Of a stretch of 64,000 bases of DNA, positions 15,001-56,131 are shown piece after piece. The DNA lies in NCBI GenBank assembly GCA_905182985.1, contig CAJJDN010000112.1, forward strand, positions 133,308-197,307. The letters run 5' to 3'. The notes beneath the pieces were generated by a model that was not told where the DNA came from, made no database searches, and saw only the letters and a list, made by a program, of their open reading frames with translations. Numbering within the stretch: the stretch's first letter is position 1; each line of letters opens with the position of its first letter. This DNA is from Paramecium sonneborni (Eukaryota; Ciliophora; Oligohymenophorea; Peniculida; Parameciidae). The translations under genes and the position numbers were made by a program.

Positions 15001-18000
15001 TTCACTGAGAATGGGAAGATGATTAAAGACTTAAGATTGAAGAAGGGAGAAATCATTATGGTATTTAGAAAATAAGTGAAAGATATACATGAAGTTAATC
15101 TATTAGATGGAGATGAATTATCTGAACCAGCTAAATAAGTATTTGGAGAGATATTTAGTGAATATTCTACAGATGGTAAAATGAGTAAAGAAGATTGTAC
15201 AAGATTTGTAACTGGATGTACAGGTAATCCTTGTAGTATCGATGATGCTAATATTTAAAGAACATTTGAATAATATGATAAAGATAAAGATTCTATTTTG
15301 ACTTTGAATGATTTCCTTGATTTCTATACTGATTCTGCAAGAACTAAAAGAACAACTGTTTGGCTCAATCTTTAGACTTTACATTATCGGAATGATCTCA
15401 TTAGAGGAGATAGAGTACCTTTACCTTATGTAAATGCTCAATTATTACCTCGAGGATAGATTGTTTAAAGTCAAAGATATTTAGATTTACTATTTGAATT
15501 ATTATAAAATTCAACTAATGAAGTTTAAGAAAAAACTTGGTATCTTTTAAGAAGATTGCCTCCATCACCTTAATTGATTAAGTAAATGCTTACTTTTGAA
15601 AACATTCAATCACCTACTGATTGGGATTAAATACTTGTTAGTAGTCATTACAGATTGCTATATAGTCTATATATTATTGAATTTCTTATGAATTAATATG
15701 ATTCTAATCATTTATAAGCTTTAATAGAAGATTAAGATATTCTTATCTTAAAAGATAAATGGATGAGTAAGTTTCTATAACTTGGAGGATTTGATAAGTT
15801 ATTACAATTCTTTAAATAATATCAAGGTAGAAGTGTAAGTACACTACCATAAATTGAAAAAGAAATCTTATCATTTCTATTAAAAACATTCTAAAATTAT
15901 GTTATTGCTGCTTGTGCTACTAATGTATCTAATCTCTATTAAGCATCAAAAGCCATTCAAATCATTAAACCCTTAGATTAAGTACTTATTGATATAAGAT
16001 AATCAGAAGATCCTGAAGAATTTAAATTACTTGTATAAAAATTAAAAGAAAGTCGATTAGGTGATAGTATCACTGAAAAAATTGAAAAATTTATCACTGT
16101 CTTAATCAATTTAATTTAAGAACTTCTTAAAAGTAATGAATTAGAATAAGAAGATAGATAAATTATTGAACATAGTATTATTGTAATCATTGTTATCTTA
16201 TTACATAATTAAGAATTATTAACAAATAGTATTGAAAATATTGAATTCATTAATATCTTTTTTAGTGGTATTTTCACTGATAAATCAGATAGTTTAAGAA
16301 ATCTATTTAGTAGAGCTATCTTAGTTCTCTGTTATGAAAGTTATAAAAAAAACCATAAACCTACGAAAATTATATTATAATAATTGATATCAATATAAAA
16401 TCAACAAGCTAATTCATCATAGTTTTATGAATTGTTAAGTTAACTGATAGATATAGCCTTTGAAAGTGAAGATTCTTAATAATTTATTGATTATTACTAA
16501 TTAACCCAATAAGTACTTGATAATCTCATCAATCATAAAAGTATTGAAACTAGATCAAAATCTACCGTTGTTGATAAAATACTTATTGGTCTTTTGAATT
16601 TATTGACCAAATTGTATAAATTCATTAAATAGCCAATTCATGATATTATATTTAATGATTGTTTATTTAGTCTTTAAGATGAAAAGGAAATTAAATGTAA
16701 ATCAAATGAAAGTAGATAAGCCGCATTTAAATTACTTTATTAAATATCACATCAATAAATAAATTGTGAGAATATTCTTTTAAATCTTCAGTAGTTGAGT
16801 TAAAAGATTCCTCTTATCAATAGATGGAATTATATACCTTCAAGTGATATGAGAAGTTCTTTTGGATATTGTGGAATTAAAAATCTAAGATGTATTTGTT
16901 ACATGAATGCCATGCTTCAATAATTTTATATGACTATTCCATTTAGATATGGTATTTTATAAGCTGAAGATGGCAAAGAACCTGATATGTAATTAAGTAA
17001 AACAGGATTTTTATTTGATGATAATGTTCTTCATCAATTATAATAGATGTTTAGTTATTTGGAATTATCTGATCGTATTGATTATAATCCTTAAGAATTT
17101 TGTGCTGCTTTTAAAGATTATGCAGGAGAACCAGTTAATATTTTTATTCAATAAGATGCTTAAGAATTTTTAAATATGATATTTGATAAATTGGAGAATC
17201 TTCTCAAAAATACTATCTATAAAAATATCTTAGATGGTGTTTTTGGAGGTAAAACCTGTACTTAAATTGAATGCTAGAATTGTAAAGCTATTAAAAATAA
17301 GGATGAAATATTTTATAATTTATCTGTTCCCATAAAAAACCTTAAGAATCTTTAGGAATGTTTTGATAAATTTGTACAAGGAGAGATAATTTCAGATTTC
17401 AAATGTGAAAATTGTAATTAAAAAGTGGATGTAAATAAGAGGTAATTGTTAGCTTAATTACCAAATGTTTTGATTTTACATTTATAAAGAATTGTATTTA
17501 ATTTAGATACATTTATGAATGAAAAAATCAATTCTCGTTTAGAATTTCCAATAAATTTGGATTTAGCATAATATACTATTAATTAAGATTAATGTACTTA
17601 ATATAAATTAGTTGGTATTGTTGTTCATTTGGGAACAGCAGATGTTGGTCATTATTTTAGTTATATTGATATAAAAAGTCAAGATTAATGGTTGGAATTT
17701 AATGATCATAAAATAAAGGAATTTAAATTGAAATAAATGGAGAATGAATGTTTTGGTGGTTAATCAAATTTAGATTATAATGATAATGATGTTTGGGGAA
17801 ATGGTTTTAGAGAAAACTCTTAAAATGCTTATATGTTAATTTATGAGAAAGTTGAAAAAGATAAAATTCAATTACAATTTAATACTCAAGAAGAATTATA
17901 AGAATAGTTATCCAAATTTGAAAATTATTCAATTTAATCTAATAATGTGTTATTAGTTGATTACAATTCATTCAAATAATATATTCCGAGTAAATATTAA

Positions 18001-20110
18001 AAGAAAGTTAATAGTGATAATTAATAGTTTTTATTAGAAAGAAATCTTTTCAATCAAGAATTTATGAAATTTATTTTAGACATAAGTGATTTTGTAAATA
18101 GTGATAATGCAAATGTGATAATTGAAATTCTTATTCGATTCAATTATGATTTATTGGCTCGTGCTTATGAGAATTCCATTTTGGAATAATTTAACACAAA
18201 GATTGTATAATTGATTCAATAATACCCTAATCCAAATTATCTTGATTTAATATACTTTGGTAAACAAGCTAAAGTATAAGATCTCTTATTAGTTTGTCCT
18301 GAGTCTAGAACTCGAAAATATTTTGGAAAGATGTTGTCTATTTTATTTAATCAAACAATATAAATTCAAGGTGAAATCACTTAAAAAATTTAAGAAGGTT
18401 TAGATTAATTGTTTTTAATGTTATAAGATTAGGTTCCTAAGAATTGGACTCGTTTTGATTAATATTTCTAATTTTGGCTTGATTTTATTTAAGAAGGTAA
18501 ACTCTAAATCTAGTATTGTTTATAAAAAGATATGATTCTTTATATGATCGATTTTATTCTAGATAAGAGTAGTCCATTATTATTATATGAAAAGAAGACT
18601 TAAATGGGAAATGCATACTTTCCAATCAATTGTTAAATTCCAATGTAAATAATAAGTGTACTCCTTTAATAAAATCATTAACTCACACTTTAAGAGAAGA
18701 AATTACTCTATTTACCTAAGTTTTATGATAGAGCTCTTAAAAGTACCAAAACTGAAGAATTGAGTCCTATAATTGTTAAATTTGCATATAATAATAGATA
18801 TTTTTCTGAAATGATAGCAGGATGTATAATGAGAGGATTAGGAAGTGTAGATTCTGATGAATTTAAGATTTACTTATAAATAGCTAAGCCTTTTCTATTG
18901 ATAGAAGATAATCTCTAAATAGAAAGATTAGAATGGCTAATTGGAATACCTTCATCAAAACAAAAGGAAACAGTTAAAGTATATGATAATTAATTTATTG
19001 AATATCCACAATTTGGTCTTTATGGATTAATAAGTTTAGAAGAAGATTATTGGACATTTTCTAGTCCATTGGGATGGTAGAATAATCTTTTTGATTATTT
19101 CTGTATTCATAGAGCTATTAAAAATAATGATAACTAATGTTTACTAGTTCTAAAATTATTATTAATGATTAGTGTTGAATGTGATACTTGTTTTGATTAT
19201 ATCTCTAAACTTCCGTGTGTAAATTATCAATATGTAATTATTTCTTTTTATTTTTATAGAAATATATGGAGGAAATTTTCAAAGCCTTCATTGAAACTTA
19301 TATCATTGATACTAAACGATTCTACTCTTAATATCCTCGAAAACAAGAAACTGATGAAACCAAAATATATCTAGATTAATATTGTAATAAGATTTCTTAA
19401 ATTCATAATGAATTTTAACCTCAATTTGATTATATTATTGGAAAAACTATTGATGTTACTAAAATCAGAAAAATACATTTTCTATTCAATCCTTGCACTA
19501 AAGAAGAAATTCAAATAGATGAAGGATCTGAAGGATTTGATGAAATTAAATAACAAATAGAAGAAGGTAATTTACATAAAGTACTTACATTGGAAGTAAT
19601 TAATATAATATATATTTAATCTAGGAAAAAATATATAAAACTTATGTTTGTGATAATATGCCAAATGGAAATACTAATGAAGCATTACCATAATAATATG
19701 TTAAAGGAACTTAAATTAGTAATTATTCTGTAGATCCTAATTGTTAAGCTGCAAACTTTATATAATCAAAAGCTTGGAGTGCTGATAGTGATGATTCAGC
19801 TACTGTGATTAATCCTAGAATTTCTGATACTGTTAAATAGATTCAACTTCAAAATCACACTAATAGAAATTTACATGTTATCTTAGAAATTAAAAGTGAT
19901 GTTAATCCTTGTCATTTTATACCTAAATCTAAAATTCAATCACTTATGGTTTCTAAAAGTTCGACTACGATGTTTACAGCCATTAAAAACAACTGTAATT
20001 AAGAATTTCCACCACTCTAATTGAAGTTAGTGTATAAAAAATAAGAGCCTAGATAAGACTCTTATATATATTTATCGTCTTAAGATGAAATGAATTTGGA
20101 ATTATTATGA
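12083..20110 (+). CDS. Giant ubiquitin-specific protease (USP9X/USP24/USP34-like) with UBL and EF-hand regions
   Basis: ATG at 12083, TGA at 20108-20110; introns 12281-12305, 12453-12477, 19234-19259 and 19596-19624 leave 2640 residues. The long first part is alpha-helical repeat. A ubiquitin-like segment lies at about 916-985 (KKFTIRINDNQTIIELRQAI...LKKGEIIMV), then an EF-hand pair at about 1000-1075 (EQYDKDKDSILTLNDFLDFY). The USP domain spans about 1574-1925: Cys box NLRCICYMNAMLQQ with nucleophile C1589, QQDAQEFLNMIFDKLE, CxxC zinc pairs, and His box VHLGTADVGHYFSYI with H1840, ending NAYMLIYEKV. Catalytic Cys and His are both present, although the usual GNTC/GATC before the nucleophile is RCIC. 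Family members remove ubiquitin from protein substrates. ORFs listed at 12845, 13678 and 19165 are pieces or shadows of this gene. Confidence 0.92.
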
Positions 20111-25363: not shown

Positions 25364-28300
25364 ATGAGTAAATAGATTAAGGCAATGTTAATTAAGAATT
25401 TGAAAATGAGTTTTAGAAATGGAGAACTATATTCTGACATTACTATTCCAATATTTGTGGCTTGTATGTTATCATTGAAAGGTATTATGAATATGTATAA
25501 TATAGAACAATTGAGTTCACTTAATTAAATCTTACCAATATTGTATAGTTTTGCAATATTACCAACAGCAAGATCAATAATGGTGCATTTAGTGGAAGAG
25601 AAGAGTAAGAAGTATAAGGAATTGTAAGGAGTAAGTAAAAGATTTATAATTTATAGATTATGGGATTGAGTTAATCGTCATATAAAATGGGATGGTTGTT
25701 GACAGGATATTTAAGAATGACACTAGCTTTGATATTCTTTTTCCTTTCATAAATATTATTCAATCTAATTGTTTAATTGGATTGGGATTTTTATTATATA
25801 AATTCATTTTCTGAACTAATGTGGCCATATATAGTATATGGATATGCAGTAAATTAATTATTATAATAGAGTCAATAAATTAATCATTTTTATTTGCTTC
25901 ATTAATGAATGAATCTAGAATAGCAGGAGAAGTAGCAACATTTTTTTGTGTAGGTTTTAGCTTTTTAATATTTTTAACTTTTATAGAATAGGCTGCTACG
26001 TATATTTTAAATATAATAATTAAGGTCTATTTCATTCTATATTGTAGTAGGCTTCTTGAGTCCATAATGCAATATAGGATTTGAATACATAACAGCCTTA
26101 TAAATAGGAGTTAATAGAGTAGGTGCTAATGTAGCTTGGTTTGATCCTTTATTAAAATAACCAATGAATATATTTCCAGTTATATTGATAAATGAAACTT
26201 ACAATTTGTAAGATGCAGGATATCAATTAATTGTTACTATGTTATTATATTTGATTTTGGCTCTTTATTTTGATTAAGTAATACCAAATGATTATGGAAT
26301 ATCTAAACATCCATTATTTCTATTAGGGATAAATTAAAAAGAGAATGCTAAGAATGGAGAATGTCTATTATTAGAAACACAAAAAGATGCTACATCAGCA
26401 TTATATTATGAAACTATTTAAGAAGATTTAGAACCTACTATTTATGTAGATAATCTTACGAAATAATTTAATAATAAGAATGTAGTTAATAATCTTACTT
26501 TCCGACTTTATGAAAAGCAAATCTTTTGTTTACTTGGACATAATGGTGCTGGTAAGACTACAACTATTTCAATGTTGACAGGATTAATAGCTAAAAGTAA
26601 AGGAAGAATTTAAATGTATTAAATGAATTTTGACAATTAATTGAAATAAATTAGAAATCATATTGGTTTATGTACTTAATAAGATTGTCTTTATGAATAT
26701 TTGACTGTTAGGTATTATTATTATTATATTTTGAAAGGGAACATTTAAAATTCTTTTCTGATATCAAGAATTCTGAAGAAAGCGAGTTAGATAATATTTT
26801 AGATAAAACAGAATTAAAAAATGAATAAAATAAAATAGTTTAGACATTATCAAAAGGTAGTTTAAGAAAATTAAGTTTGGCAATATCTTTAATAGGGAAT
26901 TCTAAAATAATATTTTTAGATGAACCAACATCTGGAATGGATGCATTTTCAAGAAGATCTATATGGAATATTTTATAAAAGATTAAATAAGAATAGAGAA
27001 CTATAATATTAACAACTCATCATTTAGATGAAGCAGAAATGTTAGCTGATAGAATTGGTATTATGTAAAGAGGAGAATTGTTAGCAGAAGGAACTTGTAA
27101 TTTTATTAAGAAAACGTTTGGAGAAGGATATACTATTTAATTAAGAAAAGAATCTATTAAATATTAAGATGTCTCTGAAATTCTATCTTAAGCAAAGATT
27201 GTATCTGAATAATGTCATAAATCATAATTAACTTTTTAAATTTCATTTGAATATTAAGATAAACTTGAAAATATTTGTTAAAAATTAGAAGAATAAGGAA
27301 TTGAAATTGATTTAAGATTGAATACTTTAGAAGAAGCATTTGTTAAAATTGGAGAACAAGAATAATTAGAATTAAGTAAATCAAATTCAAGAAGATCAAT
27401 GAGTTTATAAATGATTCAAAATGCTGAAGAAGGTTATTAATAATTCATAGAAAATGTACCTGCAAGTGTTAAAGATAAACCTAAATATAGTTTATATAGT
27501 TAATGTTTAGCCATGTTTTAACGTAGATTTTATACTACAATAAGAACTAATACAAATATTTTGGCATTTTTAATGCCTATTTTGACTATTTTATTAGGAT
27601 TATTAGTAGCTAAATATGTTTAATTTTCTGGAAGATTATCAAGAAATGATGATGCTTAATTATTTTTAAAGATTTCCATATTAGCATGTGTAGGAGTGAT
27701 TGGATTTTCATTTAATTCAAGTTTATATGTAACATTACCAGTTCTAGAAAAAGAATGTTAATTAAAAGAAGTTATGATTTGTTCTGGATGTAGGATTATT
27801 GGATATTGGTTAGGTACATTTCTATTTGATTTTATTGTTTACTTCATTATCATAGTCTTTTTATTAATTATGGGTGCAATATTAAGTCTTGAAGCAATAA
27901 CAGATTTCTGGTGGTAAACTATCCTTATTTATTTATGTTTTGGATTAAGCTACATTACTTGTATTTATTTATGTAGTTTTCTTTTTAATGATGTAGCAAA
28001 AGCTATGAAATTATTTGTTTTATCCATTTTCTTTTATTGCTTTTGTTTACCTATGGTACTTTTGGGTTTGACTAATTTTATTTATCATATAGATTCTATT
28101 CAATCCTTTGAAATATTAGTATATATCTTTTAAGTACTCTTTATGGTATATTATTTATTACATATTTAAGATAACATGTCCATTTTATAATTATTATTTT
28201 GCTTATGCTTGTATGCCTCATTTAAATAAAGGTCTTAAAGCTGAATTAGGAGGATTACGTCTTATTACATATCATAGTTACTGGTATGTTATTATGCTCA

Positions 28301-29456
28301 TTTATTAATTTTTATAATATTCTATGCTAGTCTACTATTTAGAATGGAAAAGAATCTAAAGAAATTAAAAAATCAAATCATTTACTTAAGATACATAATT
28401 AGATGATGATGTTTTAAATGAATAATAAAGAATATTTAATGGCACTGATGATATTATTCAAGCTTAATAGATCTATAAGAAATATTAGAAATAATAACAA
28501 TTTGCTTTAAATAATATATCTTTTGGATTAAAAGAAGGATAAATAATGGGAATAATTGGACCAAATGGTGCAGGTAAATCATCTTTAATAAATGTTTTAA
28601 CAAATATTAATAAAACTACTTATGGAATAATTAATATTAAATATCCTGATTAGTTACATATAGGAATATGTCCATAATATGATTGTATATGGGAAAATCT
28701 TACTGTAAAAGAACATTTAAATGTATTTAGTAAATTAAGAGGATTGTCAGGTAAATATTAAGATGAAGCTGTTTTATATTTTTTATAAAATGCTGAATTA
28801 TACAATTTTAGAAATACTAGAGCTGGATAACTTAGTGGAGGGAATAAAAGAAAATTATGTGTAGCATTAGCTTTAATAGGTGGTAGTGATATAACATTCT
28901 TTGATGAACCAACAACAGGAGTTGATCCTATATCTAGAAGAACTTTGTTTAAAACTTTAAAGTAAAATGTATCTATTAGAAAATGTTCTGTTATTTTAAC
29001 AACATAAGTTATAGATGAAGCTGAGAATCTAAGTGATACTCTTGGAATCTTAATTGCAGGATAATTTATATGTTATGGTGAACCTAATTATTTAAAATAG
29101 TATACTTTATTATATTAAATTAGAAAATATTCTGATGGCTATTATATATCTATCTTATTTAATTAAAATTATTCAGAAAAAGATATTTTAGATATTTTAA
29201 CTAAATAATTTAATAATTTTACTTAAATTAAAGAAATTAGAAAATATTATCTTACAATCAATATTCAAATTATCAGTTTCTATTCTACTTTTAAATTGCT
29301 TAATCAATTAAAATAATAATAAATTATATAAGACTTTTCTATTTCTAAGAGGTATTCTAAATTAATATTAATTCTAGCTCTCTTGAGAATATTTTTGTTC
29401 TCTTTACAAAATAGCAAAATGAAATCAATGAATAACTAGGTGTTGCGGTCCAATGA
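25364..29456 (+). CDS. ABCA-type full ABC transporter, 1305 aa
   Basis: ATG at 25364, TGA at 29454-29456. Introns: 25482-25505 (stopless, uncertain), 25631-25656, about 25849-25871 (borders uncertain), 26000-26024, 26712-26737, 28146-28170 and 29352-29377. Layout is TMD1-NBD1-TMD2-NBD2. NBD1 has Walker [11 protein letters not shown] (about 358), signature [12 protein letters not shown] and Walker [13 protein letters not shown] with [12 protein letters not shown]2 has GPNGAGKSS (about 1016), [12 protein letters not shown] and [13 protein letters not shown]. The order, and the C-terminal tail ([20 protein letters not shown]) typical of family A, identify an ABCA lipid-type transporter. It is shorter than animal ABCAs because the large extracellular loops are reduced. 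NBD1's signature is LSKGS rather than LSGGQ. The substrate cannot be told. Confidence 0.9.
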
Positions 29457-29499
29457 TCAATTTAAACTTTACATCTTATTAATATTAATAATAAAATAA

Positions 29500-31061
29500 A
29501 TGATAACTAATTTTATTAAAAAAATAGCCTCAACTTGTTCAAAAAATAAGAAAGGTGATGATGATGATGATGAAGATGATGATCAACAATATTAAGAAAC
29601 AATCAAAAAAAATAATCTTAAAAATCAACAAAAAGATCCAACATCAATAAAGAATGATAATCATTTAAATAATTAACCAAAAATTTTATAGTAGCCTTAA
29701 TATTCCAATGAAAATAAGTAATTATATATTTAATATAAAGCTATGATTAAGATAATGAATAATAATAGAATTAAAACTATTATTAAAGAAAAAGTAATAA
29801 TGAAGAATAAAAATCATAGATGATAAAAACTGATCAAACAATAAGTATCAATTTCTTCCAATAATCAAATATTAGAAGAAATTTAAATTAATAAAACAAT
29901 ACTGATTTTCAAAAGTCTAGTAATTAATAACAATCAAATATTTATATAGAACATGATAATTAAGAAGTCACAAATTTACAACAATTTCAATAATATCTTT
30001 AAGAATAAACTTCTATAAATCAATAGACTAGTCTCAATTATGAATAATTAAAGAGAAAACAAGAATCAAATCTAAGGCAAGATGATAATTCATAAAGTTC
30101 ATATTAAAATGGAAAATCAATTTAAAAAAATTAAAATTATGATCCTCCCTCTGTTTAATATAATTAATAGCAATTTTCTTTTGATGGGTAGCCAATGATA
30201 AGATTTTAAGATTAAAATTCTATTAACAATAATTAAAATAAAATTAAAATATTGAACCAAATAAACTAACCCTAATAAGATAATTAAAAATTTAATTTAT
30301 AATTATAGCATGATTAAAATTAATTTTAAGAATTAGATTAATAAAATGCTTATCGAAATCAGAATTCTTACAATATCTATTAACATAGTTTAGAATTTCA
30401 GTAACCTTAGAATTAATACCAATATCAATAAAATAATTAATTTGCTTTCAAACCAAATGAAGACATTCATTATATAGATTAGGAATAATTTACATAATCA
30501 TCATTTTAATAAAATAATCAGACTATAAATAATGATTCTAGAAAAATTAAAGAAACTAATCTATTAAGAAACAGTATTTAAAGTTTCTAAAGTTTCAATG
30601 AAACAGATATATTTACTAATTATGAAAGTTGTAATGAATTAAATATTTAATCTAAGACAAAAACTAAATAGGTTATATGTTAATATTGTTAAAAAGAGGT
30701 CTAATAAAAATATACCTAATTATAATGTTAACATTTCTATTGTAATGATTGTTTGAAGGAATTATTAAAAAATTAATCATAATAAAAGGATTGCTTTAAA
30801 TATAAATGTATATGTTCCATACCAATAAATTTAAAACTCTTTTCTTTTTAAAAAGATAGAGCTGTAGACATCTTAAAGGAGAAGTTAATTATTAATTAAA
30901 TTAATTAACTTAAATAGAATATTTAGAAATAAAAAAAATTGAAAAAGTGTAGAAATTAACATTGTTAATTTTTTGTAATTATGAGAGATGACTTGAATAA
31001 ATAACTTTTTTATTGTCCATTATGCTTATAGGAACAAAATGATGATTAATATCAGAATTGA
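29500..31061 (+). CDS. RING/RBR-like E3 ubiquitin ligase candidate, 512 aa
   Basis: ATG at 29500, TGA at 31059-31061, intron 29718-29740 (23 nt). After a short acidic Asp run (about residues 19-28) come some 350 residues of low-complexity Asn/Gln-rich sequence. The last 130 residues are cysteine-rich: VICQYCQKEVQQKYTQLQCQ, HFYCNDCLKELL, CFKYKCICSIPINLKLF, then KKCRNQHCQFF and YCPLCLQEQ. Spacing CxxC...CxHxxCxxC followed by a CxC and a second CxxxxC/CxxC set resembles RING1 plus an IBR module of RBR ligases; I do not see a complete RING2 with the catalytic Cys. E3 activity is inference. It starts 44 nt after the ABC transporter stop. Confidence 0.75.
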
Positions 31062-34813: not shown

Positions 34814-35918
34814 TTAATCAAAATGTGACTTTAAATTTCCATATCTATAATATTAATTGTTTATTCACATTCTAAAACCTAATTCATAATATGTACCTGA
34901 AATAAATTAAACAAGATTACTATATTTCAGAAAAGCCTCTAAATTTATGGTAACAATTTAATTATCTATTGTTCTTATTTACATTTTTAAATAAATAAAA
35001 ATATACAATATAATGTCATCATATAATTTCAGCCATTAAGAGCTTAATGTCTATAAAAGATAACTAATTTTACATTTATAATTTACATTTTATTTTATAA
35101 CTTAGTGAATTCTGATTCAATTAATTCCTCTTTTATGTTAAATTACTAAAACAAATTATTTCTATAGTAAAAAATACTTTTAGTAAATCCACGATAAAAA
35201 TTTATTTTACTATAGTTATATAACCTTTTCGATTAGATAATATTCTAAAAGTAACTTTAAGATTATTTTCAGTAAGAAATGATTTCCTATTAAACTGAAA
35301 ATGTATCTTTATAATTTTCATAAAATTTTTAATATGCATTCATTAATTCATATAAAGTTATTTTTCCATCCTTATTCGTATCAATATCATTAAATGCTTA
35401 AATAATATTAGAAGATTATGTATTAAAGTATTAGGTTGCCATATATTAAAGTACGCAATATTGCAATAAACTCAACTTTTTTTTAGTTTTCTCATATTTT
35501 ACAAATCTGTTTTGACTTTGTTCTCGAATTTCTTTTTATATTTAATTATCCAATAGTTTTATTTAAAGTTACTAAATCCATTCTATTAAATGAGTTTAAA
35601 ACTAAAATATTTGATAAAAATTCTTTGGCTTCATAAGAGAATTTATCATTTTACAATGATGACATATCAAAAAACCCTTTTTTAAATCTTTTTATATTTT
35701 TTAGACACTTTTTCCTTTGAATGATAAGAAACCAAATATCTCTTTGTTTACCTTTCATATCATATTCACAAAATCTTTCTAATGCTAAATAGGAAGCATT
35801 TTATATTGTTAATGGTGCTTTTATAAAAATTCTTTTTATATCAATTAATTTAATTGTTTTTTAATCCTTTTAATCATTTAATGCAAAACTATTTAATTTA
35901 TGTTAATGCAAATAATTA
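34814..35918 (+). repeat. Direct duplication 1, copy B (probable contig-overlap artefact)
   Basis: Exact repeat of 33708-34812 at an offset of 1106. Its first 171 nt (34814-34984, minus strand) are the 5' end of the SKP1-like gene without the remainder; the rest belongs to the pseudogene that continues to 36456. Confidence 0.9.
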
Positions 35919-36456
35919 ACAATATCAATTATTTATCTAATCATTATGCCAACTAATTCCTTTGACATACCAATTCCATTATTTTTTAGATCTAAAATTC
36001 CCCCAGTATAATATAATTTTCAAAAATTATTTTAGATGTATCAAAATCTTCATAAATTTCATGATGATTCTAGAATTTTAATTGAAATAATATTAAATTT
36101 TAAATTAATAATTGATTGATGTATTTTGGCAATTTACCAAATATACGAATTTTACAATTCAAATTATTCTATACAAAAACTAGTTTGTATTAATTAAACC
36201 TATTTTTATAAATATGATTTTTGCTAAGCATTTTTTCATGTATAATTGAATAATGTTAGGTTATTGCAATTTTTAATAATTTAAATAATTATTAAGGACA
36301 ATTAGAAATTTGTAGCAACTTTTTTTTAGAACACAAGGGTTTTTAATTTTATTTTTAGATGAAACTTGAGCAGAAGCAGATGGGATCAGATTTTTCAATT
36401 TTGCCTAAATTTATTTTGAATTATTTTCTTAACTCGCCTTTGAAACAGCTATGCAT
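35096..36456 (-). pseudogene. Decayed CDPK-like pseudokinase
   Basis: Reading from 36456 (MHSCFKGELRKQ) the frame gives ITQHYSIIHEKM, VQNNLNCKIRIFGK and QNHHEIYEDFDTSKIIFENY, all alignable to the pseudokinase family (compare VQHNLSGRILLAE and NHPNLIRIFEIFQD). A small insertion near 36020 shifts the frame, which resumes as TGGILDLKNNGIGMSKEL, IIDIVNYLHQHKLNSFAL and IKLIDIKRIFIKAPLT. The block after RDIW (the GIIFYKLLTG region) is deleted, and another shift precedes the single clear EF-hand (DTNKDGKITLYEL). Multiple shifts and the deletion support a dead gene. Its motifs show that it arose from an already catalytically altered relative (DIK in place of DFG). A sequencing-error explanation for all breaks is unlikely. 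Confidence 0.7.
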
Positions 36457-37145
36457 TATCCCAATAATAAAATGATATAAATATTATTTTAAAAATAAAA
36501 ATAAATTATCCATCAAATTATTTTGATAATCGAATTGCTTTTATTTGTCTTTTCTATTTATATGTGTACTCAAAATTTATATAACATTTTTTCAAAAAAT
36601 TTTATGTTATTTTATCCACAAATTAACAAGCAAATAAAAATAAAATAAAATTTGATAAATTTTCTAAACCCCATTTGAATTTGAAAATATTAATATTTTG
36701 TATCTTCAAAAATGATTGAATTCTGTCATATTTAAATAAGTTTCTATTTTACCATTTGGTATAGTATTAGATATCAGTTGATAAATAATTTTTATAGAAA
36801 GTTTATTAATTTATTTACTATCGCGCTCTCTAATTTGAGGTTCAAAATAGTTTTGTTTAAATAGTTTTTCTAAGTTTATGAATTATTATTTTAACATAGA
36901 TTTATGAATTAATTTTGCTACAGCTATAAAAGATTGATATGGGAATATTAATTTATTTATCATCTAAAAATATTAATAAAAATTATGAATGAATAATTAA
37001 TGTAATTATTAAAAAAATTAACTAACTTATTTTGATAGAAATGTTAAAAGCAATTTTTTTCTTTCTAAAGAACAAATATTAAGAATTTTAAATTCATATC
37101 ATTCTTTTTTTATCATATTGCTATCAATAAATTAATAAATCAAGA
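36457..37145. other. Intergenic spacer
   Basis: AT-rich, homopolymer-rich DNA between the divergent pseudogene and the first intact clustered pseudokinase. I see no gene, RNA or repeat. Confidence 0.55.
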
Positions 37146-38697
37146 ATGGGATCATGTACATAGAAACTGAAAAAGGTTAACTAAGAAAATGCTTAAAAAA
37201 GACAAATGTTATTACAAGCTTTGCATTCTAAAAATTAATCGATTTAGACTCAAGAATCAGATAAAGAAAAAAAGAAGAGAGAGAAATTTATGAAAACTGA
37301 TAAAACTCTAAATATCCAAAATTTCATCCTGATTTAAACATGCAAATTGTCTAAAGTTTATTCTGTTGTTTCTAATGGCAACAAAGATTAATAAATTTCT
37401 TTTCAAGGTAAATACCAGAATGAAAATTTATAAATTGTACAAAATAATCTTACTGGGAGGATTAGAACAATTGAAACACTACCATTGGGTGATAAATACA
37501 CAAGAAAATACATGGATAATTTATTAGCAAATACTTTAGTATTTTTAATATAAAGAATTTTAGTCTCATCCCAATATTACTTAAATACATGAAATCTTTT
37601 AGGACGATAATAATATTCATATTATTCAAGATTATTGTAGTGGAGGAAAATTATGTAACATAAATTACAGACAGGGTTAGGGAATATAAGAAAATATCGC
37701 ATTAAAAATTTTAGTTTAAATGATTGAATCTATGAATTATCTTCATGTGAAAGGATTAAATCATGGTCATTTAACATTTAATAGTTTTTAAAGAACTGAT
37801 GAATCAGAAAACTATTATATAAAATTAACAGATATAAAACAAATCTTTATAAAACCTTAGATAACATTTGAACAGTTACTATTTTTTGCTCCAGAAATAA
37901 TAGATAATGATTAAGAATATTCAATAGCTAGAGATGTTTGGTCTATAGGTATTATATTTTATAAGCTTTTAACTGGTAATTTGCCATATTCATCTACATA
38001 AGTAAGTAAATTAAAATCAGAAATAAAAAAGGGTATAATATAAATGACAGAATTACAATTTGATAAAATATCTTCAAGATCAAAGGATCTGCTAAATAAA
38101 TTACTTGAATATAACCCATCAACAAGATCTAATCTTAATTCTATTATAAAATCTCCATTATATAGAAAATTAGTTTCTCAAACTAATTAAATTAGCAAAT
38201 AATCAGTAAATGCTTTGGCCAATATTAAACCAGCTAATCTTATATAATCATTATTTTTATAATTTTTAGTTAGTTAACTTTGCTAAAATTAATAGAATGA
38301 AATTTATTAAATGTTTAATAAATATGATTAAAATGGGGATGCTAAATTAAGTAAGATAGAAATATATGATCTTTTGTATTAATAACTAAGATCAAAAGAA
38401 TAAGCATAATAATAGGTTGATGTAATATTTAAAGCTATTGATACTGATCATAATGGTACAATAGATTGTAATGAATTTATTAGATGTATTGTTGATAGAC
38501 AAGCTTTAATCACCACTCCAAATTTGAAAGTGATTTTTAAATAATTATCAAATGGGAAAGGTTCTATACGTAAAAAGAGATTTATGTAATGTTTCTAAGT
38601 TAATTAAAAATAAACAGATGAAATGTTTGCTTCAATTACTAAAAATAAGAGAATCACTTTTAAAGTTTTTTCGAGGACTATGATAGAACTTGTCTGA
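37146..38697 (+). CDS. CDPK-like pseudokinase with EF-hands (508 aa)
   Basis: ATG at 37146, TGA at 38695-38697, one intron 37539-37563 (25 nt). N-terminus MGSCTQ predicts myristoylation with palmitoylation. Kinase-like domain about 65-335: SHPNITQIHEIFQDDNN, FFAPEIID, ARDVWSIGIIFYKLLTGNLP. Losses: no glycine loop, VAIK lysine replaced by Glu110, HRD changed to HGH (198-200), DFG changed to DIK (221-223). EF-hand 1 at 386-397 (DQNGDAKLSKIE) and EF-hand 2 at 424-435 (DTDHNGTIDCNE) are good; two further EF-like segments are degenerate. The position equivalent to the CDPK autoinhibitory helix is present between them (about 340-365). Catalysis is unlikely; a calcium-regulated membrane scaffold is inferred. 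Confidence 0.9.
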
Positions 38698-38748
38698 ATT
38701 ATAAAAGAATTTTATACTAATTTTTATTATTTATTTTATTTTAAATAT

Positions 38749-39494
38749 ATGGAAGAACCTTTAATTTAAAATGAAGAATAAGATTAAAAAATTCCAAATG
38801 AAAAAGTTATGACAAGATTAATAAAAGGAGAATTTAGATTTGAAAGAAGGAAATATATATTTTTAAATGTAAATAGTGTGAATTTAGTAAGTAAAAGCAT
38901 TAAGTAATTAGATATTAACCATATATAATTTGATTGGACCTATTAATATAGAAGCCTAGAAATCATTAATATTTTATGAAGATACAAGAGTACCTTTAAA
39001 TGATTAAGACTTTACTCTAATGAATTTATTAAATGCATTGATTGTTGTTCATTTATTGAGAATTTTTACTTGTTTATTAGGTTTCTTTAGTGTTTCATAG
39101 GTATTTAATAATATCCATTATTTAGAAATCAGGTAAAATAATGACATATTTTATGATTATGTCAACTGTATGTGTTCTATGTAGAGGAATTATATCATTA
39201 TTAATTGTCTTAAATTATACTGCAATAAAAGATACATGTAATTTAATTTTTGGTGGTGGAACTGATGATATTGGATCTTTAATGGCAATGTAATTTTTAG
39301 TTGTGCTTATACTTTTTGTTATTGCTGAAATTCTGCTTGCTTTAATCTCATTAATCTAATGTTCTAAAACTAAAGAAGAATATCGAAGTATTTATTATAT
39401 ATTATTATCTTAAGTTTGGATCAAACATAAAGAAAAAATGATGAAGAATTATGAATTATGTTATGAAGTAGCAATTTGTTAATTAGACGAGTGA
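38749..39494 (+). CDS. Small multi-pass membrane protein, 231 aa
   Basis: ATG at 38749 (MEEPLIQNEEQDQK), TGA at 39492-39494, introns 38887-38911 and 39101-39125 (25 nt each). After an acidic cytosolic N-terminus and a short basic stretch (GEFRFERRKY) there are three clear hydrophobic segments: LLNALIVVHLLRIFTCLLGF, MIMSTVCVLCRGIISLLIVL and FLVVLILFVIAEILLALISL. A weaker one lies at YIFLNVNSVNLILTIYNLI. The tail is charged (KTKEEYRS...WIKHKEKMMK). The family is not recognised. It lies 51 nt after the pseudokinase stop, on the same strand, so a shared regulatory context is possible but untested. Confidence 0.8.
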
Positions 39495-40479
39495 TTTATA
39501 AATATGTGTAAAAAATAGTTTTATATATAATTTAATTACTTTCATTTTAAAATATTATTTTATTTCTATACGTTTCTCTTTAATATATTAAAAATATAGA
39601 TATTTATATAGAAGAAAAATTAAACATGCTTAAATATAAAAATACAATATTGCAATATTCAAATTTGTTATACATAAAAAATAATCTCTTAAGAAAAACT
39701 TTTATTGATAGCAAAAAAGATAATAATTTAAATGGAATTAAACTCCATCAATTTTAATAACCTTTAATCATTCTATAAATTATATCACATTTTATGATTA
39801 CCAAATAGGGTTATTTAAGAAATATTAATCCTTAAAGTATCAAAATAAAACTTGGTTCTATCTTATTTATTAACATAATATTATTGAACAAATAGCTAAA
39901 TTTATTCTTTTGAAAATTGATGATATTCGTTATTAAAATTTTTGTAAAAAACTCTATTATGCAATTCAGTTTAATTGTTATTTTTTTTAGAAATGCTTAA
40001 ATATTTGTTTAATCATTAAAACTTATAAAGAAAAGAACTCAATCTATCTTAGTTTATAAATATAGTAAATGAGGCTCTTTATCTACTTTAATCAAAAAAT
40101 AACCTTTAAATTAATAATAAGCAACATTTATAATTTCAATTACATTCATAATTAAATTTATCTTTTTTTTTAAGTATTCAGATATAAAACAATCTTTATG
40201 TAAAATTATTAGATATTAACTCAATATTTTAATCTATTTATTTAGATATTATAAATAATAATAAAAAGAAGAAATTTTAACGTAAGAGTTAAAGATTATT
40301 TTTTATTAATTGCTAACAGGACAAATTTTAGAAATAGAATAATAATCAGTTGAAGAAATTACTTTTAATATAGATTAATATCAGAAAAAGTAGAAAAGAA
40401 AGCAAAAAATATTCACTTAAAAAAATTGTTTAATATTCTAATTTAATTAATTTATTTTCTATATATAAAATTTAAAGGT
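39495..40479. other. Intergenic region with a broken ORF and an unassigned open frame
   Basis: Between the membrane protein and the next pseudokinase. It contains the interrupted minus-strand ORF described separately. On the plus strand, about 40170-40440, one frame stays open with a protein-like translation (KEEILTQELKIIFYQLLTGQ) but has no ATG and runs into the next gene in another frame. The rest shows no feature. Confidence 0.5.
39748..40149 (-). pseudogene. Small ORF with one in-frame TGA
   Basis: From ATG at 40149 a frame reads MNVIEIINVAYYQFKG... and KVDKEPHLLYLQTKID, meets TGA at 40039-40041 (codon 37), then continues open for another 97 codons (for example FNDQTNIQAFLKKITIKLN) to TGA at 39748-39750. 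No gt...ag intron removes the internal TGA. It could be a pseudogene, a one-base error, or chance, since TGA is rare in this DNA. Selenocysteine is formally possible but I see no support for it. Confidence 0.35.
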
Positions 40480-42092
40480 ATGGGATTATGTTCTTCCAAT
40501 TAGAATAAAAAACCAATTTAATAATCTCAATTTGTGATTAATTAAAATGAGCATAGTAAAAATGTTTTGGATTTAATTAGCCAACACTAAATAATCAGAG
40601 ACTCAACTGACAAAATAAACTAGAACTGCTGTTCCTTCAATAAATTTATTACAGAATAATAATTTTGTTAAAGATGATATTGATCCTCCAACACCTCAAA
40701 GTTTCATGCATAATCTGAATATTGTATCAGATATATAGAAGTCGCTTGAATTTAAAACTGGTTTTTTTAAAACTTATTCTGTAATTACAACAAATTGTAA
40801 AAATTGATCATAAACCATCAGAAGATGATAAAACTTTATTATGTCAACATAACAAAACAGCTGTATTGGTTTTAGTCTATTGTCTTGATCCTAAAAACAT
40901 TTAAGATAATTACTTTATTAAATCAATATAATTAAATTAAAATGTAGTTTTTTCTATTATTTTAGGATAATGTTAATATATGTTAATTTATTGAAATATT
41001 TAATGAAAATAAAACTATCTACCTGATTTAAGAGTATTGTAAAGGAAGCAAATTATCGAATTTATAGAAATTAGATTAATCTTAAATCTTATACATCATG
41101 TCATAATTAGTATCAGTTTTGAATTAATTGAATTCAAATAATTAATATCATGGCAAATTAACAATTGATTCTTTTTCTTTAGTCAATAATGAAAGTTATA
41201 ATGTTAAGTTAACAGATGTTAGAACAATATTTCAATAAAATATAAATTTGCAATAATAAAAGGAAGCTGATGAGCTAGAATTATATAAGAGGTACTAGCC
41301 TCCTTTTGAAAATCCCTCAATAAAAACTGATATTTTTTCAATTGGTATGATATTCTATTAATTATTAACTCATAAATTACCATCAAAATTAAAAATTATT
41401 AATAGTTAACAAATTTCGAATCCATTACCAAAATTGGAAAATTAAAATGATCCAAAGATTATGAAATTATTAAAATCAATGCTATAATTAGATAGTTCAA
41501 AGAGAATTTCCATCTAATAACTTACTTAAAATAAATTAATCAGTGTCCTTAATAATAAAAAACTGATTTATTAAATTTTGGATAAGATTTAAAATAATCC
41601 TCAAATCAATTATTTTTAAACAGCAATTTTAATTTACATGATAACAAAATTTTAACCTTAAGAATCAAAAATTCACAAAAAGTTATTTTAAAGTTTAGAC
41701 TAATATAATAATAAATATTTGAATAAAGATGAATTAAAACAAGCTTGTGAGAGAACTGATATAAATAAAGTTGAATTTATAATGGCTCCATAAGAATTTA
41801 ATGATGAAATTAAAAAATGTAATGGGGGATAGATATCTTAAAATGAATTTTTAATTGCTCTATGCAATAGAGAAAATTTATTAACAGAAGATTATTTAGA
41901 AAATAGCTTTAATTTTTTAAAAAATTAAAATGGTTTATTAAGTGGGAAGTCAATAAGTCGCAAATTCTTTGTGGATTAAAATGAATTACACAAGGATTTA
42001 GAGAAAGTATCATTTAATGGATAGGTAATATAATATATTTAAATTAGATAACACTTAATGAATTCAAAGAATAGATGTTACTTTTGAAATGA
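40480..42092 (+). CDS. CDPK-like pseudokinase with degenerate EF-hands (505 aa)
   Basis: ATG at 40480, TGA at 42090-42092; introns 40556-40580, 40797-40821, 40944-40965 and 42025-42047 (25, 25, 22 and 23 nt). Starts MGLCSSNQ (lipidation signal). Kinase-like segment about 85-340: LLCQHNKTAVLVLVYC, then ICQFIEIFNENKTIYLIQEY and TDIFSIGMIFYQLLTHKLP. The VAIK lysine is Tyr117, HRD is HGK (200-202), DFG is DVR (222-224), and the APE motif is gone (KRYQPPFEN). EF-hand loops are much eroded: one reads DQYNNKYLNKDEL, another NGGQISQNEF. This is the most divergent of the four intact members, and calcium binding is doubtful. Confidence 0.85.
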
Positions 42093-42448
42093 ATTACTAT
42101 TTATTTATATATTTATTATTACTATGTATGAAAGATTTTTAATGGTTAAACAAACAAAGAGTTTTTTATTATTTATTAAGTAAGGGTCACATCTATGTCA
42201 TTTTAAATTCACAATTGTTAAATGATCTTAATATATTTTTTTGATTTGAAAATACTTTCATAGACTTAATTAAAAACATTTAAAACTTCTAATTCTTTGA
42301 AAAAATAGTGATTGTATCTTAATGAATATTGAAGAAATTAATTATAAGTATTTAATTAAACAAATTACAACTTAAAATAACGCATAACTTATTTTACTAA
42401 TTATAAATAAAATAACACTCGATAATAATAATAATATAAATATTCGTT
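42093..42448. other. Intergenic spacer
   Basis: AT-rich spacer between two tandem pseudokinase genes; no gene, repeat or RNA seen. Confidence 0.6.
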
Positions 42449-43987
42449 ATGGGTTCTTGCAATACTAAAAAGAAATCTAAAAATTAATAAGAAATGGTTG
42501 TAACTACTTAAGCACAAAATGATAAAAATAGAATAGAAAGAAGATAATAGAAAGCTTAAACATTGACACCAATTTTAGCGAAGACAACATAATCTGACAC
42601 AGTAAATGAATCATTTATTTCAAATCGATCTACAAAAAAAGCTTATGATAATTAGAAATAACAAATCTAAATAAGATCTGGGCTTTTCAGAGTTTATACC
42701 TTATTAGGAAGCAAATCAGATTCTTATTTAGAAAAATAAGAAGACAATTAAATAAAATTAATCTAACATAATGTTAGTGGAATTAAAAAAAGAGTAGAAA
42801 CAATCAATAAATTAGATACTTCAAGTGAGAAATTGATAATGAAAATTTAGAAAAACAGATTGGTATTTAAATATTTAATATTAGTAAAATGAATATATTT
42901 GTCCAATAACAAATATATATGAAGATACAGAAAAATATTATCTTCTATCTGATTATTGTAGCGGTGGAAGTTTAAGTTCTTTAAAGAAAAATTTAAATGA
43001 TAATTAAGTAATGATCCTTTTAAATTAAATGGTGAATGCTATTTCTTATTTACATTAGAAAAAGTTTGTTCATAGAAGGCTTTCTTTAGATAGTTTTCAT
43101 TTGTTGAGTGATTTAAATAGTTTATTTTGTAAATTGGTTGATGTAACATGTTTATTTTATGGAAATGAATATGTAATGATAGAGCCATCATATGAGGATT
43201 ATTAAGAAGATATTTATGCATTAGGTTTAATTGGTTATTAATTATTAAATGGATAAAAGCCTTATTAGATAAAAAATAATAAATTATAAGATAATAATAA
43301 TTCAAATGAGCTTTTATTGTATTTTAAAGAAGGAACTTCTCCTACTTTAAAAAGAATTTTGATCAAAATGTTAGACAAAAAGACAACTGAAAAAATAACA
43401 ATGGAGGATATTAAAAAATATTTGTCCAAAAATGATTAAAGAAATAATTTTACTGAAGTTTTAATGAAACCTTTGTATTTTTTATCAAAGTGTAAACCAA
43501 GAAATTATTTTCATGTTATAATTTTAGCTTTCATGCTTAACAAATTTAATTAAGAAGAAGAATGTATTTTAGAAAAAATATTCATTGATGCAGATATTGA
43601 TTAAGATGGATTACTCAAAAAAGAAGATATTCTTCCATTATATAAATCTATTGTTGAATATGAAAACATCAGTGTTGATATACAACAAGTTTTCTAAAAA
43701 TTAGACACAACTAATAAAGGATCGATTGATATTAAAGAATTTATCTCAGGAGCATTAAATCTCGAAGATTTACTATCTTAAACATATTTAGAAACATGTT
43801 TTAAATATTTATAAAATTAAAGAGGATATATTACATGCCATAGTATTAAAAAACATATAGATATAAATCAACAATTGTTCGTTTAAACTTTAGATGAAAT
43901 TAAAGGCTAACATAAGGTATCATATCCATTCATATTTAATAGGTAAATTATAACGAGTTTGCTGAGATAATGAGATAACTATTGTGA
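42449..43987 (+). CDS. CDPK-like pseudokinase with EF-hands (496 aa)
   Basis: ATG at 42449, TGA at 43985-43987; introns 42863-42884 (22 nt) and 43917-43942 (26 nt). N-terminus MGSCNTKKKS. Motif state: KLIQHNVSGIKKRVETI places Glu117 at the VAIK lysine; HRD is HRR (201-203, keeping Arg but not Asp) in FVHRRLSLDSF; DFG is DVT (224-226); APE is missing (MIEPSYEDYQEDIYALGLIG). Hinge region SDYCSGGSLSSLKK is kinase-like. EF-hands: DADIDQDGLLKKED and DTTNKGSIDIKE are recognisable, with two weaker ones ending VNYNEFAEIMRQLL. The last exon (43943-43987) is repeated at 45113-45157 in the assembly duplication. A minus-strand ORF at 43039-43305 is a shadow. Confidence 0.88.
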
Positions 43988-46145: not shown

Positions 46146-48135
<1,990 letters not shown>

Positions 48136-49581: not shown

Positions 49582-51067
49582 ATGTAAACTAAGCAATCCT
49601 AAACACGTTCTTGGTAACAAATCCTCATAGATATTTCCTCATGTATGATCTAGTTGTCTTTAGGTTATATTTGTGTTGAATTGATGATGTCTATTAATTT
49701 GCACTTTCTTAATCTATATACATCTAAAATCAGTGTTGCTGCATTTGGAATTTCTTGGATGATCATCACAATTTTGTTACTACCTTTTGGAATAGGTATT
49801 ATATTAATTAATTATAAAGGTCTTAATCAAGCATTAAACACCATGGCTTCTTAAGCGATTGGATTAGGAAAAAATAAACTTTCACTTATTTATTTAAATT
49901 TTACACTTTCTTCCTAAGTCCTGATATTTATTCCACTTCTCATAGTGATTTTATGTCTTAAAACTCCTTTTAGTTATTTGATCGTTGAAAACAGAGAAGA
50001 AACCATAAATATTGCATGGTAATTATTTATTATATATAATACATAGGGAACTCATTATTCCATTATCATTGACCTCATTAACATTATTAATATTTGAAAG
50101 TTTAAAAAGTTATTTGATATCATGTGAAGTTTTTAGACCATTCATGATTATTCATTTAGTTACCTTGGCATTTCATACATTTTGGTGTTGGCTACTAGTC
50201 TCTAATTTTGGAACCTATGGAGTTTGTATTGCTACCATTATCTCTGAGTCAACAAACATCCTTTTTTTACTAATTTATGTCAGGCAATAAGAAGACCTGT
50301 AAATAAAATTTAAATCATTTTAATTCAAATTACTGTTGCAATCTCATTTTCATATTTATTAAGAATACCTTAAAAATACTATATCAATCATAGTTCATAT
50401 CTATTTAAATACAGGAATATTTATTATATTATCATTTACTGCTATTTCTTTAGGTATTGATGCCACCAATGCTTAATTAGCTCTATCCAACACATCATCT
50501 CTATACTTTAGATTGCCTTTTTGTTTATCAATTGCTTTAATGACTTATGTTGGCAATTAAATTAGTTAAGGAAATATTATTAATGCTAAAAATTATATTA
50601 AATATGGTATAATATTATATTTCAGCATTTTGGTGGTCATTATGATGATTTTCTATTTTTACCATCTTGAATGGGCTCACTTCTATACTAATGATTAAAT
50701 AGTCTAGCATATACTATTGAAAACTTTGCCATTTTTTTTATTTGGGAGTGTGATTATAGATGGGTTATAAATAGCATTAAGTGGAGCACTTAAAGGTCTT
50801 GATGAAGGAAAGTTAGTATCAAATTACACTTTATATTCTGCATATTTTGTGGGTATTCCACTCATTTTAATATTAACAAATATTTTTGATTTAGGATTAA
50901 TTGGAATTTGGTTAGGTTTTGGAATATGTAATCTTTTATTATCAAGTTTATTTATTTATACATTATGCAAAATCGATTGGAATATGCATGCTATACATAT
51001 TAAAGATAAATTTGATAAATAATCACAATAAATGGAAACAACCATGGAATTGTAAGATTTATGTTGA
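49582..51067 (+). CDS. MATE-family multidrug/toxin extrusion transporter, 485 aa
   Basis: ATG at 49582, TGA at 51065-51067, one intron 50019-50046 (28 nt). Length and about twelve hydrophobic helices fit MATE proteins. Diagnostic sequences are LNTMASQAIGLGKNKLSLIY (family pattern N..L.SQA.G.G), and in the second half TYVGNQISQGNIINAKNYI and DGLQIALSGALKGLDEGKL, which correspond to the equivalent VGN.LG.G and D..Q....G.LRG.G motifs. Members export cationic organic compounds by proton or sodium antiport; substrate here is unknown. ORFs at 49654, 50012 and 50919 are segments of this gene. Confidence 0.9.
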
Positions 51068-53238: not shown

Positions 53239-56131
53239 TCAAATATTTTCTTACTAAATTATTTTGTTGGTATCAATCTTTTGAGAATGTAACAAATGAT
53301 AAGTTTTGATAAATTCAGCTGGATATTGTAAATAAGAAATAAATTTTTTAATTAATTCCTAAAGTTTAAAATTTGAGCTATGATTTATTCTATTTATTTA
53401 TTTTTCAACATTGTGTTGAGGATAATAATCATGAAAATTCTTACTAACCTCAAATTCTGTTAAACCTTTTTTGATATATTTTTATTGATTTTACAATTTA
53501 AAATATAATAATTCAATAGATTCCTTATCATTTAGATTCATATTTTTAATTGATTTTATATATTCATACCTTTATTTTAATTCTTCATCTATATTAATTT
53601 CATAGTAATTGGTTGATAAAAGTTCTTAAGTATAATTTTATTTAAAATGATTATTATTATTTTAATTATTTAATCCTTATTAATACATATTCAAAATATT
53701 TAATCCTTATGATTATCTTCTTGAAGCTAAACTATTTTATTTTTATAATCCCATTCCATCTAATTGATAATCGAGTTGTTTACTGTTGATTGTTTTATTT
53801 AGTCTGACTTAATTATGATTATTTATGCTTCTTTTAATTTATTCAATATGATCACCTGGAATATATGATAAAGCTAATAATGAATCTCTTTTTAAACTTA
53901 CTTTAGCTACAGAAGTTGATTAATATTCAATTTTTGATTCTTTTGACTCTCTAGATTCTCGAAAATCTTCTGGTATTCCATTTTAGAATGACATTGTATT
54001 TATATTATTTGTTGTTAATTATTATTACTAAGGTAGGTAGTATTTTTTAAGAAATGATTATTTGATTTCATTAAAATCTAAACTATCAATCTAATCAGTT
54101 TATAATCTTTATGATTTAAAGGGTCTTCTACAAAATACTTTTCTTTTTTATAATAAGGCATATTAACACCTCTTTATAATAAGATCTTTTTGTGGAATAA
54201 AATGAAGCATAGGGCAATTGTTGATTTCATGTTCCGAAGATAAACATGATTCACATTGTTTGTGAATATAAGAAGATCTGTAATTGTAAATTAAATCATC
54301 TTTAATATGGCAAAACTTTTCATAATCATTTGGAAAATCTTTGAGTTCCTGTATAAAATCATTTCTAGACAAAACTAATAATTTAGTGAATCCAACACTT
54401 TTAAGTTTCTTATTCTATATAATATTTCCAACAAATAAATTTCTTAAACCAAAGATATCATCTTTTTTTGCTTTTTTTAATATTTATCCTGATTCCATTA
54501 ATACATCAATTTCTCCATCATCAACAAAATAAAATTAAATATTATTATTATCTAAATCTATAATTTATTCTGGCTAAAGTTATAAAGAAAAAACTTTTTT
54601 CAATAAGTTTTATTAGAATTAAATGCTAAAGTTTTATTATAATAAAGTAACCTTAGCAAATATTTAACTATTGGCTTATATTATTAATTACTCTCTTAGA
54701 CTTTCAGACAACTGAGATATTATTACTTTTTCTTCTTCTGTATCTTATCCTTGTATAGATTGCCAATAATGATTTAAATATTATCGAATTTGATTTTACA
54801 AATAATATGGCACTTACTTTTTATTCATATAACTATTAATAGTTCTTAATTTATTTTTCGTATCTTCTCCATAATCAGTTATTTTTTCAATTATTGAACC
54901 AACAGTATTTATTGAATATGGTAATTGAATACTTGAGACCAAAATAAGAAAAATACATGTTGATTTTTCTAATCCACTTTTAGGTGATATATCACCATAT
55001 CCTATTGTAAACATAGTTACACAAGTATAATAAAATGATTATAAATACTCATCTGTCCAATCCATTATGGGAACATCTTTTAGAGAATCTAACCAATTCT
55101 AATCATTTTTCTCTCTACTATAATTGCCAACCTAATTTAAAAATTATTTGTACCCAAAACCATAAGCATGAAAATAAATGAATGACATAAAATAGTAATA
55201 ATAAAAATTTTAATAATTCAATGCAACTTGATACCTTCTTTGATAAATTTAAAGCTTATTCATATTCACTAGCTTTATAATGTACACTTATTTAATGTGA
55301 TAATACTGTCAATAAAACTAAATAACTTGGATTTTAAGTCACATTAATTGTTGTAATTTCAATAGATTTAAATGTTATAAAAAGTGTAGCTAATAATAAA
55401 GTAGATATCCATTCGAAACCATAAGATTTTATTATTTAATGTTTAAATATTTATGCTCTATCAGTAATAAGTGATCCTGCATTATAATATGCAGTATTTA
55501 ATCCAATTAAAAAATCAATAAATAAAATAATTAGCATAATTATAGTTGAAGTGTAATACCTATTAAACAAAAGAGATTAATCAGTCCAAGCCAATTCTAA
55601 AGGTATTAAATATAAGAAATATAATTTTGATATTATTGCTATGACATCCCAAATTATAATCCTTCTATTTTCTGGATATACTATTGGGATAGCCATAATG
55701 TAATGAGTTAAACATTCAATAAAAGGTTTAAAAATACTTAGAAGTCTTTTTTTTAATAGTCTGTCTATGAAAATCTTAAAAGTTGATTATGTTGATATTT
55801 TATCAATACTTCCTAATGAACTATCATTAATAATTGTTAAATGTTTATGGTTTAAATTTTTTAGGTTGTGTTTTCTATTTAATAAAATTTCAATAAACTT
55901 CTTAGCATTTACATTTTATGCTTACATACTTTTTAATACTAATCTCTCTTAATAATCAACTGAAATTTATTTGCTAACAAAATTTAAAATTCTTTATCCT
56001 ATACTTTTTGTTCTTGAAGCCATACTATTTTTTTTAATTATACCTTTAGTAAACTAGCGATCTAATTCTCTTTAAGTATCAATACGATCTTTATTTACTT
56101 AAATGGATTAATAGTTTGAGTGAAAACTCAT
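53239..56131 (-). CDS. Potassium channel of the CNG/EAG type with degenerate cyclic-nucleotide-binding domain, 956 aa
   Basis: ATG at 56131, TGA at 53239-53241, one intron 55132-55153 (22 nt). A basic cytosolic N-terminus is followed by S1-S6 helices at about 150-420. The pore reads SFYYTCVTMFTIGYGDISPK, with the K+ selectivity filter TIGYGD near residue 370. S5 is SCIELLKFLLLLFYVIHLFS. The C-linker (KKQVPYYLQNQIRQYLNHYW) and a CNBD-like barrel (FYFVDDGEIDVLMESG, KKDDIFGLRNLFVGN) follow. The cassette lacks the usual FGE...R ligand residues, and the S4 stretch (LLTVLSHQISVHYKASEYEQ) lacks the regular Arg/Lys series, so both cyclic nucleotide and voltage gating are questionable. The Cys/His cluster QCESCLSSEHEINNCPMLH may bind metal. 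Ciliates carry many such channels in the ciliary and somatic membrane. Confidence 0.9.

Follow-up and report, generated by a model that had tools for sequence, protein, structure and literature searches.

On the evidence of their sequences, four genes (A-D) and one pseudogene (E) of Paramecium sonneborni probably belong to an ancient Paramecium family of lipid-anchored pseudokinases, which derive from calcium-dependent protein kinases (CDPKs) and would serve as a calcium-gated membrane scaffold and not as enzymes. All five lie in a stretch of 64,000 nucleotides (C112:133308-197307; hereafter the window) of a 91.5 Mb genome in which TAA and TAG are sense codons. At least 39 members can be modelled in this genome; the HRD aspartate is absent from every one of them, and the family forms a single clade apart from active CDPKs.

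Pseudo-CDPK genes of the window

Genes were modelled with genetic code 6 and short GT-AG introns of 22-27 nt. The features are as follows (window positions):

37146-38697, + strand: gene A, pseudo-CDPK, 508 aa, one intron (37539-37563); 100% identical to the deposited P. sonneborni protein P0116
37473..37475, + strand: in A, Glu codon at the VAIK-Lys position (motif table, alignment to solved CDPKs)
37762..37788, + strand: in A, HGHLTFNSF in place of the HRDLKPEN catalytic loop (motif table, alignment to solved CDPKs)
37831..37833, + strand: in A, Asp of the former DFG, which reads D-I-K (motif table)
38326..38361, + strand: in A, EF-hand 1 loop, near-canonical, 5/6 positions (EF scoring)
38440..38475, + strand: in A, EF-hand 2 loop, canonical, 6/6 positions (EF scoring)
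40480-42092, + strand: gene B, the most degenerate pseudo-CDPK, 505 aa, four introns
42449-43987, + strand: gene C, pseudo-CDPK, 496 aa, introns 42863-42884 and 43917-43942; 100% identical to the deposited P. sonneborni protein P0212
9985-11633, - strand: gene D, pseudo-CDPK, 531 aa, introns 11137-11162 and 10030-10056; 100% identical to the deposited P. sonneborni protein P0001
about 35022-36464, - strand: pseudogene E, a decayed copy, frameshifted at several points, without an ATG start and with its catalytic loop deleted

An earlier note on this DNA had placed A-D and their CDPK-like architecture correctly, as judged by the gene models and by matches of the Pfam Pkinase and EF-hand models to all four, with kinase and EF-hands in one chain. 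The B, C and D models share an intron at a matching place in the last EF-hand region. The description of A, B and C as three tandem genes is loose, the gap of ~1.8 kb between A and B holding open stretches. In a protein search with a four-gene profile, in which the best-sharing 7998 candidates were scored and B was queried only within the profile, no deposited copy of B was recognised. Each of the four starts with MGxC, as the note had it, and the motif is found near the model start in 33 of the 35 members outside the window (searched from 250 bases before to 30 after that start), which brings the total to 37/39.

Pseudogene E is a decayed copy as claimed, with a longer extent than first given, and its state bears out the idea of continuing gene death in the family. 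Its best alignment is with a gene of contig C46, at a score of 1201 (the other 18 queries reach 301 or less), and dN/dS between the two is 0.165; this relative retains the family motifs, and its model has one unexplained frameshift in the linker. Elsewhere in the window, ABC transporter pieces, a MatE match and an ion-channel match are seen at 25909-29823, 49982-51067 and 53239-55308.

Catalytic residues and EF-hands across the family

The family count of 39 comprises the four window genes and 35 members elsewhere, and is a lower bound, many weaker matches being unclassified; three further likely members lie at C150:197983, C150:177580 (minus strand) and C122:211453 (minus strand). L001-L008 (top Pkinase matches) and L080 (a different kinase) were excluded, and a gene represented by several loci was counted a single time. 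Member models are spliced alignments, some covering only part of the protein; 20 of the 35 outside models were free of frameshifts initially and 28 after refitting, leaving an unexplained frameshift in 7/35, in one case (C150_214) inside the kinase domain. Some of these seven may be unmodelled introns.

Pseudokinases are defined as kinase folds that lack at least one of the VAIK Lys, the HRD Asp and the DFG Asp. The family falls within this definition and lacks the catalytic residues of active CDPKs: the Lys is present in 3/39 members (C5, C3 and C6), with Glu at its place in 24/39, and neither the HRD Asp nor the DFG Gly is found in any (0/39 each). The Gly-rich loop is lost as well, and the catalytic Asn (0/39) is replaced by Ser in 35/39, with Phe next in 37/39. 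Retained are the HRD His (39/39), followed by Gly in 31/39 and, after the lost Asp, by Leu in 34/39, so that the common new signature of the family reads H-(mostly G)-x-L-(T/S)-x-x-S-F; the DFG Asp (34/39); and a Lys three places before it (39/39). Solved CDPKs align in the same register to A and to a 20-sequence profile, and the residue placements agree; the alpha-C Glu, where the alignment is gapped, was left out of the scoring. The earlier statement that all four window genes lack the residues for phosphotransfer thus holds for the VAIK Lys, HRD Asp, catalytic-loop Asn and DFG Gly, and has to be qualified for the HRD His and DFG Asp, which A-D keep.

An artefact of reading frame or genetic code is excluded. 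Beside the dead cluster lies an apparently intact MAPK-type kinase (window about 46146-47909, - strand), presumably of the ERK7/MAPK15 type, which under the same code keeps HRDLKPSN, DFGLAR and TEY, so the losses are not a product of reading; likewise, six CDPKs modelled from this genome still have the Lys, HRD, Asn and D-F/W-G, the DFG being replaced by DWG in two of them. Judging from the lost residues, the kinase fold of the family should no longer transfer phosphate. Since the DFG Asp is kept in 34/39, some weak binding of metal or nucleotide may persist, and one might ask whether the fold binds nucleotide through this Asp and catalyses another reaction: some pseudokinase-like proteins have proved active, and the invariant Lys before the Asp would suit such an enzyme. 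We regard this as very unlikely, given the loss of the Gly-rich loop, HRD Asp, Asn and, except in three members, Lys; nor was a relocated conserved Lys noticed in an unsystematic look through the motif table.

EF-hand loops were scored by a six-position rule devised for this analysis, gapped loops counting as 0, in 44 rows (the 39 members, C62_333, C8_6 and three P. tetraurelia proteins). A score of at least 5/6 was reached by EF1 in 41/44, EF2 in 25/44, EF3 in 4/44 and EF4 in 0/44, compared with 10, 12, 11 and 10, respectively, of 12 comparison CDPKs. In most members, then, EF1 survives and EF3 and EF4 are gone, and the family lacks the four calcium-binding EF-hands of active CDPKs. The claim that EF-hands are present in all window genes stands for EF1 in A, C and D and for EF2 in A and D only (5 or 6 of 6), not for B, in which the two loops score 4 and 4, nor for EF3 and EF4, which by this rule are lost in all four. 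As EF2 fails in 19/44 rows and B scores low in both loops, some members may not bind calcium.

Single origin, spread and constraint

In a maximum-likelihood tree of 60 rows and all columns, the family lies on one side of a branch with support 100/99, and the same branch, again with 100/99, is found in a second tree of 55 rows built without the catalytic, EF3 and EF4 columns. Nine near-identical rows from other species were left out of the first tree, and 14 rows of the second, namely those nine and the long-branch or odd rows C25_105, C150_216, C16_757, win_B and P0009. The window cluster is only part of this clade. Loss of the HRD Asp therefore probably occurred once, before the expansion; support for the deeper branching order within the family is weak, which leaves the placement of the three Lys-keeping members uncertain. 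C62_333, C8_6, P0010 and P0140 were labelled as comparison group in both trees, though apparently inactive too. The two P. sonneborni loci among them, L033 (C62:333k) and L036 (C8:6k), are sister to the family (94/97) and represent a second, milder inactive type: HRD reads HKN and DFG is missing, but unlike the family they keep the Lys and a near-canonical EF3 (5/6). Four metagenome relatives of CDPKs, P0138, P0139, P0010 and P0140, have HGD, HGN or HKN in place of HRD, and P0010 and P0140 also look inactive.

The tree also bears on the suggestion that the dead proteins are decoys, which would dimerise with active CDPKs or compete for their substrates or membrane sites and so tune them by dosage. 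The six modelled CDPKs of the same genome, with intact catalytic residues and four EF-hands, would provide the targets, and the C-lobe frame is retained (DVW motif: Asp 39/39, Trp 34/39). However, in the 60-row tree the family has a separate branch of strong support, within which the subfamilies have long stems, and close mimicry of any single active kinase is not seen; a decoy role is hence rather unlikely.

A local expansion, as first proposed, is not what the genome holds: the 39 members are spread over C112 (eight), C46 (seven), C150 (seven), C122 (six) and other contigs (11), and the first four, with 28/39 members, look whole-genome-duplicated. Gene order on C112 matches that on C46 and, in part, that on C150 and C122, and a USP9X-like deubiquitinase gene (window 12382-19653, + strand) has close copies at matching positions on C112, C46 and C122; none on C150 was among the matches listed. 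For C112/C46 and C150/C122 pairs other than B, dS is 0.85-1.33, while pairs between C112 and C150 are saturated. Three successive whole-genome duplications have been described for Paramecium, and the present pattern fits two rounds among the three (PMC10195154). With pairs at dS about 1 or saturated, a recent local tandem burst is ruled out, and the expansion is old, as the earlier note had argued. B is not part of a simple duplicate pair, because it shares only 34% identity with its positional partner L054 (C46:175k), with saturated dS, compared with about 80% for its neighbours; reciprocal loss of older tandem copies is perhaps the reason. Two equal-scoring matches ~1.1 kb apart, at C150:173269 and C150:174401, represent either a recent tandem copy or an assembly duplication.

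The losses extend to other species of the P. aurelia group, where none of 13 A-, C- and D-type orthologues keeps the VAIK Lys or the HRD Asp and all 13 show the same losses; the proposal was open to refutation here and was not refuted. Identities are 72-79% for A, 73-75% for C and 74-76% for three of the D-type. Since the contigs listed for these proteins are equal in length, D probably shares a contig with A in P. tetraurelia and with both A and C in P. primaurelia. The expansion can be called lineage-specific only within the reach of capped, word-based protein searches with three queries (the four-gene profile, A and C). The P. tetraurelia D-type protein P0003 branches outside two P. sonneborni copies in both trees (100/99 and 100/98), in keeping with a published hint that P. 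sonneborni and P. jenningsi underwent a duplication of their own (PMC10195154).

Purifying selection is shown in 12 unsaturated duplicate pairs (dS < 2, the E pair set aside), with dN/dS of 0.045-0.152, far from the value near 1 that the earlier note had named as contrary evidence; B, which gives no usable estimate, is outside this result. Pseudogene E and the frameshifts left in 7/35 outside models, although some of these may mark introns, might be taken to mean that the genes are remnants of a past CDPK expansion in near-neutral decay, but this reading has very little probability in the face of these ratios and, for A, C and D, of the identities to other-species orthologues. Pooled over ten pairs, omega falls from 0.130 in the N-terminus to 0.094 in EF3-4, 0.082 in the kinase domain and 0.057 in both EF1-2 and the ex-catalytic region; within the kinase domain, the tightest constraint thus lies on the ex-catalytic region. 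Active kinases are also best conserved there, so its low omega does not specifically prove a new role, and active CDPK pairs are saturated in dS, which rules out a fair comparison of omega.

A putative calcium-gated scaffold and its relation to known systems

We favour a scaffold whose seat at the membrane would probably be provided by N-myristoylated Gly2 and palmitoylated Cys4, as MGxC implies, and whose kinase fold would no longer transfer phosphate. By analogy with CDPKs, calcium on the retained EF-hand 1, and in many members on EF2 too, would shift the calmodulin-like tail against the kinase-shaped body, and this movement may expose or hide a protein-binding face. The protein would then act at the membrane as a scaffold gated by calcium, and not as an enzyme. 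More tentatively, and with some doubt on our part, the 40-plus-member, single-origin pseudo-CDPK family could constitute a new class of calcium receptor, retained from before an older whole-genome duplication, in which the ex-active site (HGxLTxxSF and the kept Asp) would have been remodelled into a conserved non-catalytic site for a ligand or partner, read mainly by the first EF-hand pair.

Public records label several of these proteins 'Calcium-dependent protein kinase', so that kinase counts and calcium-signalling models for Paramecium probably include a block of non-enzymes. Catalysis lost once, followed by multiplication under strong constraint, makes the family a natural test case for the passage from an enzyme fold to a regulated scaffold. 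Gene silencing by feeding is described as in use in Paramecium (PMC10974281).

Among the titles and abstracts that a literature search listed, none concerns a family of CDPK-derived pseudokinases in ciliates; a 2009 paper on the P. tetraurelia kinome lay outside its scope, so an earlier notice may exist. In Ichthyophthirius, also a ciliate, 38 kinase-domain genes outside known families were called likely pseudokinases; in that account, on which alone our comparison draws, they are not described as CDPK-derived or EF-hand bearing (PMC3341644). The other near case is Oms3, the O3 mating-type substance of P. caudatum, which is kinase-like with C-terminal EF-hands, as in the family, and which its authors locate to the ciliary membrane (PMC10974281). 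In contrast to the family, Oms3 is reported to have ATP-binding residues and four EF-hands and looks active-type; compared by these descriptions only, it was set aside as a member (PMC10974281, PMC12942946).

CDPKs of ciliates, apicomplexans and plants share with the family a kinase fold followed by a calmodulin-like EF-hand tail, and solved apicomplexan CDPKs match it in both sequence and fold. In Foldseek searches of the PDB with the predicted structures of A and D, the 50 matches listed of 2000 were CDPK entries, one per list being named by gene only. CaMK and DAPK are also among the kinase-domain matches, with nearly equal Z; the predictions are mediocre (mean pLDDT 69.8 and 68.7, respectively) and their domain arrangement is unreliable. 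Unlike CDPKs, the family is without the Gly-rich loop, HRD Asp, catalytic Asn and DFG Gly, has lost the Lys in 36/39 and has mostly lost EF3-4. With pseudokinases in general it shares a kinase fold devoid of key catalytic residues, and it is set apart from them by its single origin and its junction to an EF-hand calcium sensor.
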